Assembly: GCA_947624485.1 (NCBI GenBank)
Contig: CANQKM010000002.1
Span: 186,001-250,000, forward strand
Length of the DNA: 64,000 nt
From: an uncultured Clostridia bacterium
Lineage (GTDB): Bacteria; Bacillota; Clostridia; UBA1381
Direction: 5' to 3'
Shown: positions 9,392-61,785 of the stretch, in pieces
Layout: each line of letters begins with the position of its first letter
Numbering within the stretch: position 1 is the stretch's first letter
Program-made: the position numbers and the translations under genes
The notes under the pieces: model-generated
What the model was told of the DNA's origin: nothing
Databases searched by the model: none
Seen by the model: only the letters and a program-made list of their open reading frames with translations

Positions 9392-9600
9392 GAAAAAATA
9401 AATAGCCAATTACCCTGAGATTTCGCGTTTAAAAGTCTTTTTTTTACCAACACTTCTTTAAAGGGACTCATTCTCCGGATGCGGCGTATACGCCTCCTTT
9501 CCTTCGGGACTGCCAGTGGACATATAAAGTATTCGGGATGTAACCCACCTGCATGGGCAGGTAGAAACTTGACTTGTTCAGACGGTTATTTCGGGGTTTT
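9392..9600 (+). ncRNA. ssrS: 6S RNA
   Basis: About 190-210 nt with the 6S architecture. A closing helix of ten contiguous pairs (with G-U wobbles) joins ACCCTGAGAT (9412-9421) to ATTTCGGGGT (9588-9597). The 5' part CTGAGATTTCGCG is very close to the E. coli 6S 5' motif CTGAGATGTTCGC. The middle holds a long interrupted hairpin (GGCGTATACGCC, CACCTGCATGGGCAGGT). 6S RNA mimics an open promoter and sequesters the sigma-A holoenzyme in slow growth. It has its own promoter, a T-rich 3' end and no sizeable reading frame. Confidence 0.8.
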
Positions 9601-9671
9601 TATTTTTTTGTTCTTGTATTTAACGGGCGAATGTGGTAAAATAGCTTTAATATTCATAGGAGGAATGCAAA

Positions 9672-22485: not shown

Positions 22486-23471
22486 AAATACTTCTCGACG
22501 GCTACTTTGACCGCAATTTGGGCGACGATTTAATGCTCACGCTCGCCGCGCGCGGACTTAAGGAGCATGAGATTTACGTTCCGCCGCATGAGATAAATAT
22601 TGGAAACGCGCGGTACACACAGGCGAAAAGCGGATTTGACGCGTATTTGAAGGTGACGGGCTCGGGATTTGTGATATATAATACGCTCGGCGCGGCGTAC
22701 CGCCTGCGCGACGCGTACCGCGAAGCAAAATACGCGCCGCGCCGCGCGGTGATAAGCTGCAATATCGGACCGTTCGCGAACGCGATAGGGGAGGCGGCGG
22801 TCAAAAAGCATTTGTCGCAGTTTGACTTTGTGACGGTGCGCGACACGCGGTCGCTCGAATACATGAACCGCCATTTTCCAGAAAAGAACGCGGTGTGCCG
22901 TCCCGATATTGTGTTTTCGCTGCCGGACGATATGATACCCGACGTAAAAAGCGAAAACCTGCTCGGCATAGCGGTGCGCGGTGCGGCTGACTGTGACGCG
23001 CTTGCGGAAATCGCCGACCGATATATAGCGGAAACGGGAGGCAAAACTCTGATTTTGTGCTTTGACAGCGGCATGGAAAACGACCTTCTCGCCGCGGAAC
23101 GCGTAAAGGAAACAATGCGCGCGGGTGACAAAGCCGAAATCATACATTATGAAACGATAAATGATATGCTTTATGCGATGAAACGCTGCGCCGCAGTGCT
23201 TTGTGTGCGTCTGCACGCGTCGGTACTCGCCGCGCGTATGGGTATACCGTTCGCGGCTGTTTCATATTCGCAGAAAACCGAGGACGCGCTGCGTGAGGCG
23301 GGCGTGAAAAGTAAAATATACAAATCGGGAAGCCTGCCGGTTCAAGAGGTAACGGACGCGCTGCTTAACCCGACGGATTTTAAGGTGAGCGCCGATGTGG
23401 TAAAAGCCGCGTCGGAGCATATCGGTAAATTTAAGGAATATCTTGAAGAAAACATTGACAAAACAATATGA
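22482..23471 (+). CDS. polysaccharide pyruvyl transferase (CsaB-like)
   Basis: A 329-residue member of the polysaccharide pyruvyl transferase family (PF04230 type): LLDGYFDRNLGDDLMLTLAA at the start, SCNIGPF, TVRDTRSLEYM, LRLHASV-like CVRLHASVLAARMGIPFAAV near the C-terminus. CsaB adds ketal pyruvate to the wall polymer that anchors SLH-domain proteins; the SLH remnant at 1.3-1.5 kb shows such proteins exist here. Coupled to the upstream GT2 gene. Its 3' end contains the -35 box of the antisense promoter of the toxin-antitoxin-like module. Confidence 0.85.
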   Translation: MKILLDGYFDRNLGDDLMLTLAARGLKEHEIYVPPHEINIGNARYTQAKSGFDAYLKVTGSGFVIYNTLGAAYRLRDAYREAKYAPRRAVISCNIGPFANAIGEAAVKKHLSQFDFVTVRDTRSLEYMNRHFPEKNAVCRPDIVFSLPDDMIPDVKSENLLGIAVRGAADCDALAEIADRYIAETGGKTLILCFDSGMENDLLAAERVKETMRAGDKAEIIHYETINDMLYAMKRCAAVLCVRLHASVLAARMGIPFAAVSYSQKTEDALREAGVKSKIYKSGSLPVQEVTDALLNPTDFKVSADVVKAASEHIGKFKEYLEENIDKTI

Positions 23472-23483
23472 ATGTGATATATT
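23455..23483 (+). promoter_or_regulatory. promoter of the antisense RNA, module A
   Basis: TTGACA (23455-23460), 17-nt spacer, TATATT (23478-23483). The -35 lies in the last codons of the pyruvyl transferase gene. Confidence 0.75.
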
Positions 23484-23489
23484 AAAGAT

Positions 23490-23571
23490 AACAAAGAGCG
23501 GTTTTGACCGTTCCGCAATGAACTTACTATATCAAATGAATAGTCGTCCCATTGCAGGCGGGGCGACTATT
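23490..23571 (+). ncRNA. predicted antisense RNA (antitoxin), module A
   Basis: Predicted from the promoter above to the hairpin at 23539-23571, about 80 nt. It starts AGATAACAAAGAGCGG, forms a stem GCGG-TTTTGA-CCG, and converges on the tiny peptide gene, sharing only the terminator and the last codons with it. Expression is inferred from signals, not observed. Confidence 0.5.
23539..23571. terminator. bidirectional terminator, module A
   Basis: AATAGTCGTCCC pairs with GGGGCGACTATT (one wobble), followed by TTTCTT on the plus strand. On the minus strand it closes the peptide mRNA. Confidence 0.75.
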
Positions 23572-23641
23572 TTCTTATGCTTTTAATAATTTCATATATT
23601 ATAAGTAATTCAATCAGGTTAAGTAAAATATTAAAATCCAT
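23567..23641 (-). CDS. 24-residue hydrophobic peptide, putative type I toxin (module A)
   Basis: MDFNILLNLIELLIIYEIIK followed by SIRK: a single hydrophobic helix with a basic end, as in membrane-acting type I toxins. The site GGAGGTG lies 8 nt upstream but is locked in a hairpin (23648-23668). The gene has a near-consensus promoter and an intrinsic terminator, and faces a convergent antisense promoter. I do not recognise the family. The same layout recurs twice at 60.2-60.8 kb with another peptide. Toxicity is inference. Confidence 0.6.
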   Translation of the reverse strand: MDFNILLNLIELLIIYEIIKSIRK

Positions 23642-23668: not shown

Positions 23669-23720
23669 TCGGAACAGTCGCCGCCGCTCCCGTTATCCGC
23701 CGCAATTCTGCGGCGGATAT

Positions 23721-50510: not shown

Positions 50511-50559
50511 TTTGTTTTCTCTCCTTTATATTAAAGCCGCACCCTGCGGCATCGGTAAC

Positions 50560-51213
50560 ATAAGTAAAAATAGGGTAGTGAACGGAGTAAAGTTTGCGGC
50601 TTAGGTCCGGCAGGTTTTCCCGTCGGTCAACTCCCTCGTCGCCGTGGGAGCGGTTTCCCATTAAAGACCGGCACCTATACGCCTTTCGGCGTACCGAGTA
50701 GCCGGATCGCCACTGAGTCCGCACTGCAATCCTCCGCTCACCCTTTTACGACAGCCTAGAGGTTTTCCCATACAGCCGAAGCCTTCCGTATCCTCTTTTG
50801 CAGAGCATGGTTTCAGCGCGCGATTCCCCTTATGCCCGATGGCGCCAAAATAGGCGAAAGGTTCTGTTCGCGCATCCGCCACATCCACTCAAGGCTGGCT
50901 ACGCTGCCCACAGCCCTCGCGCGGTCTCCTTATGGGAGATACGCGCTACTGACCGCAAAACAGGTTTTCCCCTGAGCCGTAACAGCTTACTCCCTTAGGG
51001 GGAATGGGCTGCCACAGTCACAGGCCTCCACGGAAAAGGGGGAAGGGCTGCTATGCCGTTAGCAACCGCCCCTAAACCTTAACTCCCAGCATCAGCCCCG
51101 AACTGGGCGTTCAAAGCAAAACACCAGAAACTTCATCGATGTGCCATTTGGCGGATTTTTAGGCCCGCTTTCCGAAAAGCCGTACTGACTAGGATACTGC
51201 ACCGCTATTACAA
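50560..51213 (-). ncRNA. ole: OLE RNA (ornate large extremophilic RNA)
   Basis: About 650 nt with no sustained reading frame on either strand, a strong promoter at one end and oapA at the other, read towards oapA-dxs. The segment has many paired blocks, such as GGTACGCCGAAAGGCGTA and CCCCTTTTCCGTGGAGGCC. Size, orientation and neighbours match OLE RNA, a highly structured RNA that forms a membrane complex with OapA and affects stress tolerance. I base the call mainly on context; the 3' end is approximate. A GCCGCA-GGG-TGCGGC hairpin lies between it and oapA. Confidence 0.75.
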
Positions 51214-51219
51214 TTTATT

Positions 51220-51248
51220 ATCTTATCATACTTAAAGCAAAAAGTCAA
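51220..51248 (-). promoter_or_regulatory. promoter of the OLE-oapA-dxs transcript
   Basis: Minus strand: TTGACT (51243-51248), 17-nt spacer, TAAGAT (51220-51225); start predicted near 51213. Confidence 0.75.
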
Positions 51249-57271: not shown

Positions 57272-57384
57272 ATCAGAGTAGGCGTATGCGCGTAAAGTGC
57301 GGAACGAACGGGGAGTTGTCGTTCCGACGAAAAGCCGTCCGTATGAGCGGAGGCTTGCGGTGCGTATGCCGCATCCCGCTGAAA
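57272..57384 (+). promoter_or_regulatory. tetrahydrofolate (THF) riboswitch
   Basis: Key blocks agree with the recalled THF consensus: GAGTAGGCGTATGCGCGTAA, AAGTGCGGAAC, GGGGAGTTGTCGTTCCGACG, then GCGGTG...TGCCGCATCCCGCT. Stem pairs such as CGGAACGA/TCGTTCCG are perfect. Downstream, ACATCTCTTT (57393-57402) can pair over ten bases with AAAGAGGTGT, the folT ribosome-binding site (one G-U), so control is probably translational: ligand bound, site hidden. Confidence 0.8.
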
Positions 57385-57450: not shown

Positions 57451-58008
57451 ATGCGTAAAACGCTTGAAAACTTCAGACAATCGGCGCGCAATCTCACAAA
57501 TACGCGTCACCTTGCGCTCGCGGGTATGCTGCTCGCGATGCACGCGGTACTCGGTATCATCAAAATTCCGCTGCTTACGCCCGACAACCGTATAACCTTT
57601 ACGTTCGCGGCTACGGCTGCGGCGGGTATAACGCTGGGACCCGTTCCCGCGATGCTTGTCGGAGGGCTGGGCGACATACTCGGCTACTTCTTAAATCCCG
57701 GCGGCGGCGCGTACTTTTTCGGCTTTACAATATCGGCGGCGCTCGGCGGACTCGTTCACGGAGTGCTGCTTTACAAAGCCGAGCCGAAATACGCGTTTTG
57801 GCGCGTCATAATCGCGGAGCTTATTATAACTTTATTCATAAATATAATGCTCAATACGTATTGGCTGTCGGTTTTGTACGCAAAGGCGTTCGCGGTTTTC
57901 TCCGCGGCGCGTATCATTAAGAATTTCGCGGCGTTTCCGATACACGTACTTATAGTGTTCGCGCTTTACGAGCTTATATATCGCACAAATTTATCAAAAA
58001 AACTGTAA
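57451..58008 (+). CDS. folT: folate-family ECF transporter S component
   Basis: A 185-residue membrane protein with about six helices: LALAGMLLAMHAVLGIIKIP, GPVPAMLVGGLGDILGYFLN, PGGGAYFFGFTISAALGGLV, with LNTYWLSVLY further on. This is the FolT pattern of energy-coupling-factor folate uptake; it needs EcfA, EcfA' and EcfT, encoded elsewhere. The THF riboswitch just upstream independently supports folate. AAAGAGGTG precedes the ATG by 8 nt. Confidence 0.9.
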   Translation: MRKTLENFRQSARNLTNTRHLALAGMLLAMHAVLGIIKIPLLTPDNRITFTFAATAAAGITLGPVPAMLVGGLGDILGYFLNPGGGAYFFGFTISAALGGLVHGVLLYKAEPKYAFWRVIIAELIITLFINIMLNTYWLSVLYAKAFAVFSAARIIKNFAAFPIHVLIVFALYELIYRTNLSKKL

Positions 58009-60081: not shown

Positions 60082-60146
60082 GTGTGGTGCGGTGCGGCGC
60101 ATCTTGTTCGCCCGAGTGCGGCTGCTATCATTTCAAAACAAATCTA

Positions 60147-60175
60147 TTGCAATATAAATTTCAATATGATATACT
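60147..60175 (+). promoter_or_regulatory. promoter of the peptide mRNA, module B
   Basis: TTGCAA (60147-60152), 17-nt spacer, TATACT (60170-60175). Confidence 0.75.
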
Positions 60176-60249
60176 GATTAACAGGTGACGGAGAAATCCG
60201 TGCGACCTTGATAACCGGAGCGGGGCGGTCTGTTTCGGAAAGGTGCTGT

Positions 60250-60312
60250 ATGAGCGAATTAACGATTGATCTAATCATAATTTTGCTAATTGTAATCTGG
60301 ATAAAGAAATAA
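60250..60312 (+). CDS. 20-residue hydrophobic peptide, putative type I toxin (module B)
   Basis: MSELTIDLIIILLIVIWIKK: acidic start, one hydrophobic helix, Trp and two Lys at the end, typical in shape of membrane-acting type I toxins. The ribosome-binding site AAAGGTG is 6 nt upstream, and leader bases GCGACCTT can pair with it. The leader (about 60182-60249) has a CGGAG-AAA-CTCCG-like hairpin and GATAACCGGAGCGG. A terminator hairpin follows the stop. Too short for gene finders; supported by its near-perfect copy with only silent changes. Confidence 0.65.
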   Translation: MSELTIDLIIILLIVIWIKK

Positions 60313-60414
60313 CCGCCCTATCTCGTAAATAGGACGGTTATGGGTAGAATTTATGTAATTCTACAAAATAATTAACTATTTGTGATAGAAACAGAATGTT
60401 TCCGCTCCTTCGTT
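60305..60414 (-). ncRNA. predicted antisense RNA (antitoxin), module B
   Basis: Minus-strand promoter TTGACA (60444-60449), 17-nt spacer, TATAGT (60421-60426); predicted start near 60414. The RNA opens GATAACGAAGGAGCGG, forms hairpin GAAACA-TTC-TGTTTC, and runs into the shared terminator and the peptide's last codons. Expression is inferred. Confidence 0.55.
60311..60339. terminator. bidirectional terminator, module B
   Basis: AACCGCCCTAT pairs with ATAGGACGGTT (one mismatch). On the minus strand it is followed by TTATTTCTTT, so it can also end the antisense RNA. Confidence 0.7.
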
Positions 60415-60482
60415 ATCTAAACTATATCACATTCTCTTTTATTTGTCAAGTATACAACTTTTTCCATCTTAAAACAGATCTA

Positions 60483-60511
60483 TTGCAATATAAATTTCAA
60501 TATGATATACT
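60483..60511 (+). promoter_or_regulatory. promoter of the peptide mRNA, module C
   Basis: TTGCAA (60483-60488), 17-nt spacer, TATACT (60506-60511), identical to module B. Confidence 0.75.
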
Positions 60512-60585
60512 GATTGCCGGGTGGCGGAGAAATCCGTGTGACCTTGATAACCGGAGCGGGGCGGTCTGTTTCGGAAAGGTGCTGT

Positions 60586-60648
60586 ATGAGCGAACTAACG
60601 ATTGATTTAATCATAATTTTGCTAATTGTAATCTGGATAAAGAAATAA
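60586..60648 (+). CDS. 20-residue hydrophobic peptide, putative type I toxin (module C)
   Basis: Same peptide as module B (MSELTIDLIIILLIVIWIKK). The two genes differ at codon 4 (TTA/CTA) and codon 8 (CTA/TTA), both Leu, so both visible changes are silent. This suggests the peptide sequence is selected and the gene is translated. Same leader, ribosome-binding site and terminator as module B. Confidence 0.65.
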   Translation: MSELTIDLIIILLIVIWIKK

Positions 60649-60750
60649 CCGCCCTATCTCGTAAATAGGACGGTTATGGGTAGAATGACGATGTCAATCT
60701 CAAATAATCTCTTAAAACGAATAGAAACAGAATGTTTCCGCTCCTTCGTT
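60640..60750 (-). ncRNA. predicted antisense RNA (antitoxin), module C
   Basis: Minus-strand promoter TTGACA (60780-60785), 17-nt spacer, TATAGT (60757-60762); predicted start near 60750. 5' sequence GATAACGAAGGAGCGG and the GAAACA hairpin are as in module B; the 3' half has diverged. The promoter starts one base from the end of the neighbouring leftward gene. Confidence 0.55.
60647..60675. terminator. bidirectional terminator, module C
   Basis: Same hairpin as module B, AACCGCCCTAT / ATAGGACGGTT, overlapping the peptide stop codon. Confidence 0.7.
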
Positions 60751-60786
60751 ATCTAAACTATACCACATTTCTCCTACATTGTCAAG

Positions 60787-61785
60787 TCAATTTTCAATCA
60801 CAACCGTCCGTGTGCTGCCGTCCCAATCGACGTTCACGTCGAACGCTTCCATAACGAACCGAAGCGGCACCATTGTACGGTTATTTTTAATCATAGCCGG
60901 AATATCAAGCTCCACGTCCTCACCATCGAACAGCGCACTGTCGGAACCGACAAACAAAATCATCTTATGCCCGTCCTTTTTAATCGTGACCGCCCGCGTC
61001 TTACCGTTCCAGCTTACGTCCGCGTCAAGCGCCTCGCTTATGCCGCGAATGGGAATAAGCGTATATGTATCACCGTTCACCGTTTCAAGCACGGGGTACT
61101 GGTCGTCGAACTGCAGAAGCTCGCCGTTCAGCCTAACCTTCGCGCCGACGTACGGAATATCGTTATGGTAATACCGCAGCACATGCTCTATATACTCCGC
61201 GTCGCCGTACGTTTCATACTGCCAGTTATCGGCGTACGCCGCAGCATTCGCACGCTCCGCGAGCCAATCGTCACCCTTCGCCTCAACGATCCTGTTAAGC
61301 ACCGTCTGACCGAAATTATACGACTGTATCATCTTCATATAATCACAGTCATACCGAATAAGCGACTGCGAAATCAAATACGCCGCGAACGGCACAGCCT
61401 TTTCCGGCACAAGCCTGTCCTCGAGCGTCCACTCCTCACCGGTCGTCCTTTTACCGAACTCGGCGAAGCTGTCACCGAGCGTGTACTCGATCTGCATAAT
61501 TCCCCACGCAGGGTACTCGCTGCCGTCCTCGCGGTAGCTCAAATTACGTCCCGAACTCTCCTGCATACAAATCGCGGCGAGCAAATTCGGATCTACGCCG
61601 TACTGATCGCCCGCTTGGCGGAACAAATCCGAATACGACTTGACCGCGCTGTTAAGCTGCATTGTACCGATCTCTATCCCATCCATGCTCGTGCCGCTGT
61701 GGTCGGGGATAACGCCGTCCGCGTACGCGCACACGCCCGACGCCGTCACAGCCGCGGCAAGCAAAAGACCAACAAGTCTTTTCAT
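60787..61785 (-). CDS. secreted lytic-transglycosylase-like protein with copper-amine-oxidase N-terminal (stalk) domain
   Basis: A 332-residue exported protein. Signal peptide MKRLVGLLLAAAVTASGVCA, then an SLT-like domain (about 45-200) with the catalytic Glu in NLLAAICMQESSGRNLS and WGIMQIEY. The C-terminal third (about 210-332) is a Cu_amine_oxidN1-type domain (PVLETVNGDTYTLIPIRGIS, TMVPLRFVMEAFDVNVDWDG), a wall or polymer-binding module common in Clostridia. Likely cleaves peptidoglycan. AAGGAG is 8 nt before the ATG at 61785. The module C antisense promoter lies just past its stop. Confidence 0.85.
   Translation of the reverse strand: MKRLVGLLLAAAVTASGVCAYADGVIPDHSGTSMDGIEIGTMQLNSAVKSYSDLFRQAGDQYGVDPNLLAAICMQESSGRNLSYREDGSEYPAWGIMQIEYTLGDSFAEFGKRTTGEEWTLEDRLVPEKAVPFAAYLISQSLIRYDCDYMKMIQSYNFGQTVLNRIVEAKGDDWLAERANAAAYADNWQYETYGDAEYIEHVLRYYHNDIPYVGAKVRLNGELLQFDDQYPVLETVNGDTYTLIPIRGISEALDADVSWNGKTRAVTIKKDGHKMILFVGSDSALFDGEDVELDIPAMIKNNRTMVPLRFVMEAFDVNVDWDGSTRTVVIEN

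Follow-up and report, generated by a model that had tools for sequence, protein, structure and literature searches.

Several described systems join the mRNA of a small toxin to an antisense RNA. In bsrG/SR4, according to passages of a review (PMC6562991), the two RNAs pair at their 3' ends, the Shine-Dalgarno (SD) sequence is sequestered and RNase III cleaves, without being essential there; the same passages describe an antisense RNA overlapping the 3' end in txpA/RatA and other Hol_Tox systems. In aapA/IsoA of Helicobacter, a section of another article (PMC6733600) describes a long-distance helix between the 5' and 3' ends of the mRNA that hides the SD, activation by 3' trimming, and the presence of an antisense RNA. 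The Fst/par locus of pAD1 (RNA I-RNA II), as presented in an extract of PMC4147584, produces convergent RNAs that overlap at their 3' ends and has a small hydrophobic toxin and direct repeats. For Clostridia, parts of a review of type I modules with C. difficile as its main focus (PMC6563280) describe CD0956.2-RCd10 and its kin, which have a convergent antisense RNA and a hydrophobic peptide with a Lys-rich tail, and report that most Clostridial species yielded no hit when homologues of known type I toxins were sought.

The stretch analysed here, referred to as the window, comprises 64,000 nucleotides of the genome of an uncultured Clostridia bacterium. A first-pass annotation, made from these letters alone, had proposed two units 336 bp apart encoding the same 20-residue peptide, and this arrangement was recovered. 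Two direct repeats share the offset of 336, one of 222 nt (60129-60350 / 60465-60686, 95% identical) and one of 49 nt (at 60385 / 60721, 98% identical), and the tandem units 1 and 2 span 60129-60785. Their features, and those of a third module in the window, are as follows.

60147..60175, plus strand: predicted promoter of the unit 1 peptide mRNA, TTGCAA-17-TATACT with TG before the -10 (9/12 consensus, moderate)
60204..60209, plus strand: possible anti-Shine-Dalgarno GACCTT of unit 1, which pairs with AAAGGT (60239-60244) when leader and frame are folded together
60210..60237, plus strand: leader arm of the unit 1 fold-back, near-identical to the 5' end of the antisense RNA (from sequence and family covariation)
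60250..60312, plus strand: unit 1 peptide gene, an open reading frame of 20 codons encoding MSELTIDLIIILLIVIWIKK
60309..60341, minus strand: predicted terminator stem of the unit 1 antisense RNA, followed by TTTCTTT on the minus strand; at the orthologous site of two relatives a like stem persists alone
60387..60417, plus strand: 3' arm of the unit 1 fold-back, complementary to the 5'-terminal 30 nt or so of the antisense RNA (from sequence)
60421..60449, minus strand: unit 1 antisense promoter, TTGACA-17-TATAGT (11/12 consensus)
60483..60511, plus strand: predicted promoter of the unit 2 peptide mRNA (promoter scan)
60546..60573, plus strand: unit 2 leader arm (from sequence)
60586..60648, plus strand: unit 2 peptide gene, also encoding MSELTIDLIIILLIVIWIKK, with two silent differences from unit 1
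60645..60677, minus strand: predicted terminator stem of the unit 2 antisense RNA
60723..60753, plus strand: unit 2 3' arm / antisense 5' end (from sequence)
60757..60785, minus strand: unit 2 antisense promoter (11/12 consensus)
23567..23641, minus strand: peptide gene of the third module, encoding MDFNILLNLIELLIIYEIIKSIRK (reading of the locus, module rule)
23669..23698, minus strand: leader arm of the third module (from sequence)
23487..23516, minus strand: 3' arm / antisense 5' end of the third module (from sequence)
23455..23483, plus strand: antisense promoter of the third module, TTGACA-17-TATATT (promoter scan)

Only two codons, 4 and 8, distinguish the frames of units 1 and 2; each encodes Leu in both copies, in agreement with the two silent changes that the first-pass annotation had noted. 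The near-consensus convergent promoter that it had placed on the other strand is the TTGACA-17-TATAGT listed above. The sense promoter, which it had also called near-consensus, is present with its TG before the -10 and is merely moderate in its match. The intrinsic terminator assigned to the peptide mRNA proved to be misassigned: the T-run sits on the minus strand, so that the hairpin 3' of the stop codon ends the antisense RNA, and a sense-strand terminator was ruled out in the window units. The predicted antisense RNAs would start at about 60415 (60751 in unit 2) and end at about 60300 (60636), which gives an overlap with roughly the final ten bases of the peptide frame; they are strongly structured relative to shuffles (z -6.1 and -5.6 in units 1 and 2). 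The structured leader of the first-pass annotation was weak by single-sequence folding, with z -2.2 (unit 1) and -1.5 (unit 2) for leader plus frame and -1.5 when the leader of unit 1 is folded by itself. The leader-plus-frame folds of the window units pair ACCTT with AAGGT, whereas the leader-alone fold does not, and the GACCTT/AAAGGT pairing of unit 1 is likewise absent when the leader is folded alone. Two features had been overlooked, the third module (23641-23567, minus strand) and an inverted repeat between the leader and the 3' end.

The gene adjoining the tandem units encodes an SLT transglycosylase domain and a Cu_amine_oxidN1 domain and has close relatives in the genus. Elsewhere, the window contains an OLE RNA (Rfam RF01071, 413 bits, full length) at 50556-51221 on the minus strand, a THF riboswitch (RF01831) at 57272-57383 on the plus strand, just upstream of an ECF transporter gene (substrate-specific component, PF12822, at 57451-58008), and a 6S RNA (RF00013) at 9409-9601 on the plus strand.

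Homologous units, whose absence elsewhere the first-pass annotation had named as an argument against its reading, occur in the same genome and in relatives. DNA search, locus reading and peptide-profile searches gave at least 11 modules of one design in the own genome, with the architecture checked: those at 60250, 60586 and 23641 (minus strand) of the window, and others on contigs C6 (159130), C10 (40374, with an adjacent module encoding an unrelated peptide, and 1489), C14 (24537), C20 (3315), C1 (400699) and C9 (10740). The same tandem pair is present in an uncultured Clostridia MAG, Lapin-008 bin90. DNA matches at E <=0.01 were found in 40 of 101 genomes, many of the weak ones probably by chance, and in 15/16 members of the genus, the own genome being included in both counts. 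The profile of MSE-type peptides had matches in 25/70 genomes of the family at E <=1, in 21/95 genomes at order level at 0.01, all 21 from the same family and none from the 25 genomes outside it, and in 4/291 genomes at class level at 0.001. With the MDxD-type profile, 7 of the 291 class genomes matched at 0.01; four of these belong to two other families, and the module rule recognised one or more modules in each of the four. In G231, a genome of another family, 20 modules lie in three stretches (L182 on C22, L183 on C17 and L184 on C5), in tandem runs of up to five. All 20 have a 12/12 antisense promoter, and their leader/arm duplexes reach -45 or lower in 18 cases and are weak in two (-25.7, -20.5); by eye, the leaders and arms are unlike those of the window. 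One further locus, L119 (G100, C21 match), failed the module rule.

Phage and plasmid collections gave zero blastn matches to the window unit, near-own records possibly being excluded there. Among viral contigs, MSE-type peptides gave 378 pattern matches, none of them confirmed, and MDxD-type peptides gave 143, of which one was confirmed; 308 pattern matches in genome contigs likewise yielded one confirmed case (L112). The confirmed viral case (L185) is an IMG/VR contig of 37,979 bases with two modules, at 1501-1575 and 2511-2585, and the module family may thus also ride on phages.

For the comparisons below, 63 candidate modules were taken from 82 sequences; two (MKPPIRH.. and MLLSSS..) were dropped as unlike the family and one further candidate because its leader was too short, which left 60 modules in 39 clusters. 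MVSTDW.., whose 3' region runs into its neighbour, and MGGGSF.., whose start is uncertain, were excluded from folding and from the terminator scan (37 modules) and kept in the strict-alignment and strand-composition analyses (n=39). A re-derived set, based on a peptide length of 18-33, a hydrophobic core, a basic tail and a Shine-Dalgarno-like word, comprised 75 modules in 51 clusters. The promoter test used 77 unique frames chosen by the same peptide criteria, with less flanking sequence demanded.

An antisense promoter of at least 9/12, taken as the best in the 110-nt stretch downstream, was found in all 77 peptide-picked modules. It reached at least 11/12 in 71 of the 77, as against 19 of 2000 random window stretches, in a test that is partly dependent, some loci having been fetched by a DNA query containing the antisense -10. 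Across the 75 modules, sense promoters match at 7-12 of 12 positions (mean 9.9) and antisense promoters at 11.3 on average, and a stronger antisense promoter is expected if the antitoxin outruns the toxin. By a strict rule, an antisense terminator was detected in 22/37 modules, including window unit 1. A sense terminator was detected between the stop codon and the antisense -10 in one of the 37, and further downstream (to +400) in five. With a sense terminator before the antisense -10 in just 1/37, the extension of the peptide mRNA across the 3' arm is an inference.

A stretch of the leader reappears at the 5' end of the antisense RNA, where it makes up roughly the initial 30 nt; put differently, this stretch is complementary to the 3' region of its own mRNA. 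Over the 51 non-redundant modules, the duplex of leader and own arm had a mean of -42.1 kcal/mol, compared to -29.5 with permuted arms and to -32.8 for the lowest mean among 10,000 arm permutations. In 38 of the 51, the duplex was better than with all 50 shuffles of the arm. Ranked by energy, the own arm came first in 16/51 and among the top three in 31/51, related modules sharing similar arms. A strict alignment in which G-U counts as a mismatch was less favourable: 15 of 39 modules did not outscore 20 shuffles, and 16/39 had their own arm as the strict best match. Of 37 mRNAs folded between a loosely predicted 5' end and the vicinity of the antisense start, 35 had 10 or more leader/3' pairs. 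RNAalifold picked the leader/3' helix unaided in a MAFFT alignment of 16 members, hand-picked from the 51 (MSE-type and three others). In this alignment, 7/7 pairs showed double changes (shuffles average 4.1, 9/500 as high), with 22 double-change cells versus 7.2 in shuffles (0/500 as high), and 86.6% of the cells in the helix were paired; the corresponding values were 73.6% for shuffles and 49-70% for slid versions.

The differences between leader and antisense 5' end leave G-U pairs in the peptide mRNA in a ratio of 137:46, compared to 584:373 in swapped pairs (Fisher p 0.0003). With the conserved GGCGG masked, the ratio was 77:27 toward the peptide mRNA and 438:330 in swapped pairs (Fisher p 0.0009). 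This strand bias is in part compositional and in part not, and it indicates that the folding strand is the peptide mRNA. The sequence shared by leader and antisense 5' end might instead be a common site for a protein or a third RNA. The leader arm does resemble the antisense 5' end in sequence, and in the window units each of the two is able to form a G-U-rich hairpin. By eye, the arm sequences of different groups differ beyond recognition, and a common ligand site would not permit such divergence; together with the excess of the G-U bias over that of swapped pairs, this makes such a site very unlikely.

The models do not predict that the fold-back masks the ribosome-binding site directly, the mean predicted SD accessibility being 0.35 at full length and 0.34 without the 3' part. 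The SD is mostly paired, locally, in 23/37 modules, among them the third module of the window (0.19), and its accessibility exceeds 0.45 in 14/37, including unit 1 of the window, where it is 0.48 at full length and 0.24 without the 3' part. Local masking in the window units is uncertain in these predictions, and our confidence in a bsrG-like reading is reduced because the SD of the window unit is not clearly hidden.

The peptides, with their hydrophobic core and basic tail, are under purifying selection, in agreement with the selection on protein first read from the two silent changes. The non-synonymous drift that would have spoken against it was not seen: among 33 twenty-residue modules, pN/pS was 0.19 in 65 close pairs, 0.33 in 131 middle pairs and 0.43 in 256 distant pairs (528 non-independent pairs in all, 76 of them outside the bins). 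This selection shows only that the peptide matters, and its toxicity is putative; the product could also be a non-toxic small membrane protein, such as a transporter regulator, whose expression is incidentally set by an antisense RNA. Such a role is unlikely, as the neighbours seen vary, from tRNA genes (L003 1910-1985, L004 407-482, L005 1671-1746) and the RNase P RNA (L007 1724-2055) near own-genome modules to the SLT-domain gene in the window. The modules are also often in tandem, some pairing unrelated peptides side by side (L004 1535-1946, L048 640-1073), and every one of the 77 peptide-defined copies has the antisense promoter.

A peptide of L048 (MTVYDAI...) begins like BsrG, which starts with MTVYESL. 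The leader part at 60183-60223 of the window is 98% identical over 41 nt to L005 although the peptides are unrelated, which suggests recombination between modules.

The site behind the SLT-domain gene, compared by eye, offers a series of losses. It carries two modules in the own genome and in G010. In G011 (L163), the antisense promoter, 5' arm and terminator are kept, and the peptide gene and leader are gone; in G005 and G008 the terminator alone is left, adjoining the gene end, and in seven further relatives (L167-L173) no module was seen. The one case of an antisense gene outliving its peptide gene fits toxin-antitoxin logic. Presence and absence at orthologous sites, together with the many copies, their intergenic position where read and the inverted arms at their bounds, would also be marks of a tiny MITE-like mobile element with the peptide frame as incidental cargo. 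The arms, however, lie inside both promoters, the 3' arm adjoining the antisense promoter, and they vary between groups while staying complementary within a module, covarying and favouring one RNA strand. What persists after loss at the orthologous site is the antisense gene or its terminator, and the selection on the peptide argues against incidental cargo. A mobile element of this kind is therefore extremely unlikely.

The units are almost certainly genuine modules under selection, each with an antisense gene and an mRNA that folds back, and the peptide is probably a toxin held in check by its antisense RNA in the manner of bsrG. The moderate promoter would give an mRNA encoding a peptide of about 20-30 residues that spans the membrane once, and the strong convergent promoter an antisense RNA of about 110 nt that covers the 3' part of the mRNA and the last few codons and would stop at a terminator of its own. 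The mRNA would fold back in cis, its leader pairing with its own 3' arm and lowering translation; in trans, the antisense RNA, its first 30 nt or so nearly copying the leader arm, would pair with the same 3' arm, which would probably lead to cleavage by RNase III. Any mRNA that escaped would be translated into a membrane-disturbing peptide.

A large Clostridia superfamily, whose toxin mRNAs each contain, in cis, a copy of the arm with which their own antitoxin pairs, is conceivable, and we put it forward tentatively, as more doubtful than not. If it were true, leader arm and antisense 5' end would stay alike while their letters turn over, and a genome could accommodate ten to twenty pairs that are mutually independent, some of them in tandem runs of at most five, as an arsenal that might serve, for example, in anti-phage defence or in holding loci. 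The family, unrecognised by the libraries searched, reaches a minimum of 11 modules in one genome and of 20 in another. It supplies numerous natural replicates of a single RNA architecture and, at one site, a loss series. With these, one can ask how leader, 3' arm and antisense RNA co-evolve yet remain complementary, and whether the pairs come to act independently.

Type I toxin-antitoxin-like modules of a family that it did not recognise, the reading offered by the first-pass annotation, remain the best reading of the locus, given the antisense promoter in 77/77, the purifying selection and the database searches, which gave no match at cut-off. No Rfam gathering score was reached by the window units; RsaOG (E 0.59), U4 (0.84) and PK-repZ (1.9) all fell under it and were judged to be chance. 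The BsrG covariance model (RF01412) gave nothing at gathering score in the window or in L133, L004, L185, L003, L005, L007, L162 and L182-L184, nor any match up to E 5 in 60100-60800. The same model finds bsrG itself with 210 bits; the modules are not bsrG members by sequence. Fourteen family peptides gave no match at the Pfam or NCBIfam cut-off; two of them came short of it with Hol_Tox (PF16935; E 0.14 and 0.15), and the window peptide had no match to that family. Seven peptides compared to PHROGs had a best E of 0.031, to families of unknown function, and four compared to PADLOC had zero matches. Within the titles and abstract openings of the matches listed, a scope that leaves subscription papers and supplements outside, the family was undescribed.

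Among the known systems, CD0956.2-RCd10 and its kin share with the modules their occurrence in Clostridia, the convergent antisense RNA and the hydrophobic peptide with its Lys-rich tail; in the parts of the review that describe them (PMC6563280), they are 34-53 aa long and several lie in prophages, and the modules are set apart from them by this description. Fst/par resembles the modules in its convergent RNAs with overlapping 3' ends and in the small hydrophobic product. The repeats of Fst/par are direct, so that the leader pairs with the antisense RNA, whereas those of the modules are inverted, so that the leader resembles the antisense 5' end and pairs with its own mRNA. With aapA/IsoA, the modules have in common a 5'-3' long-distance helix in the peptide mRNA and a predicted antisense RNA, but their helix is not predicted to hide the SD, whose accessibility is unchanged by the 3' part. 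With txpA/RatA and Hol_Tox systems they share a 3'-overlapping antisense RNA and a hydrophobic peptide.

The likeness to bsrG/SR4 extends to the pairing of the leader with the 3' part of the mRNA, a predicted antisense RNA that overlaps at the 3' side and a small hydrophobic peptide with a Lys tail. BsrG differs in being a peptide of 38 aa, compared to about 20-30 residues in the modules. Its mRNA has a sense hairpin with a T-run after the arm, whereas such a sense terminator precedes the antisense -10 in 1/37 modules. A local SD hairpin is present in bsrG, as computed on NC_001884; in the modules the SD is mostly paired, locally, in 23/37 and more accessible than 0.45 in 14/37. The same fold-back computation, applied to bsrG of SPbeta (NC_001884), gave -59.8 versus -35.4 in shuffles (sd 4.8, 0/200 as low). 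This result and the account in the passages of the review (PMC6562991) are the basis for the bsrG/SR4 anatomy proposed here, and, as far as the DNA can tell, the units are probably chromosomal type I toxin-antitoxin modules of a new sequence family that would work in a bsrG/SR4-like way.
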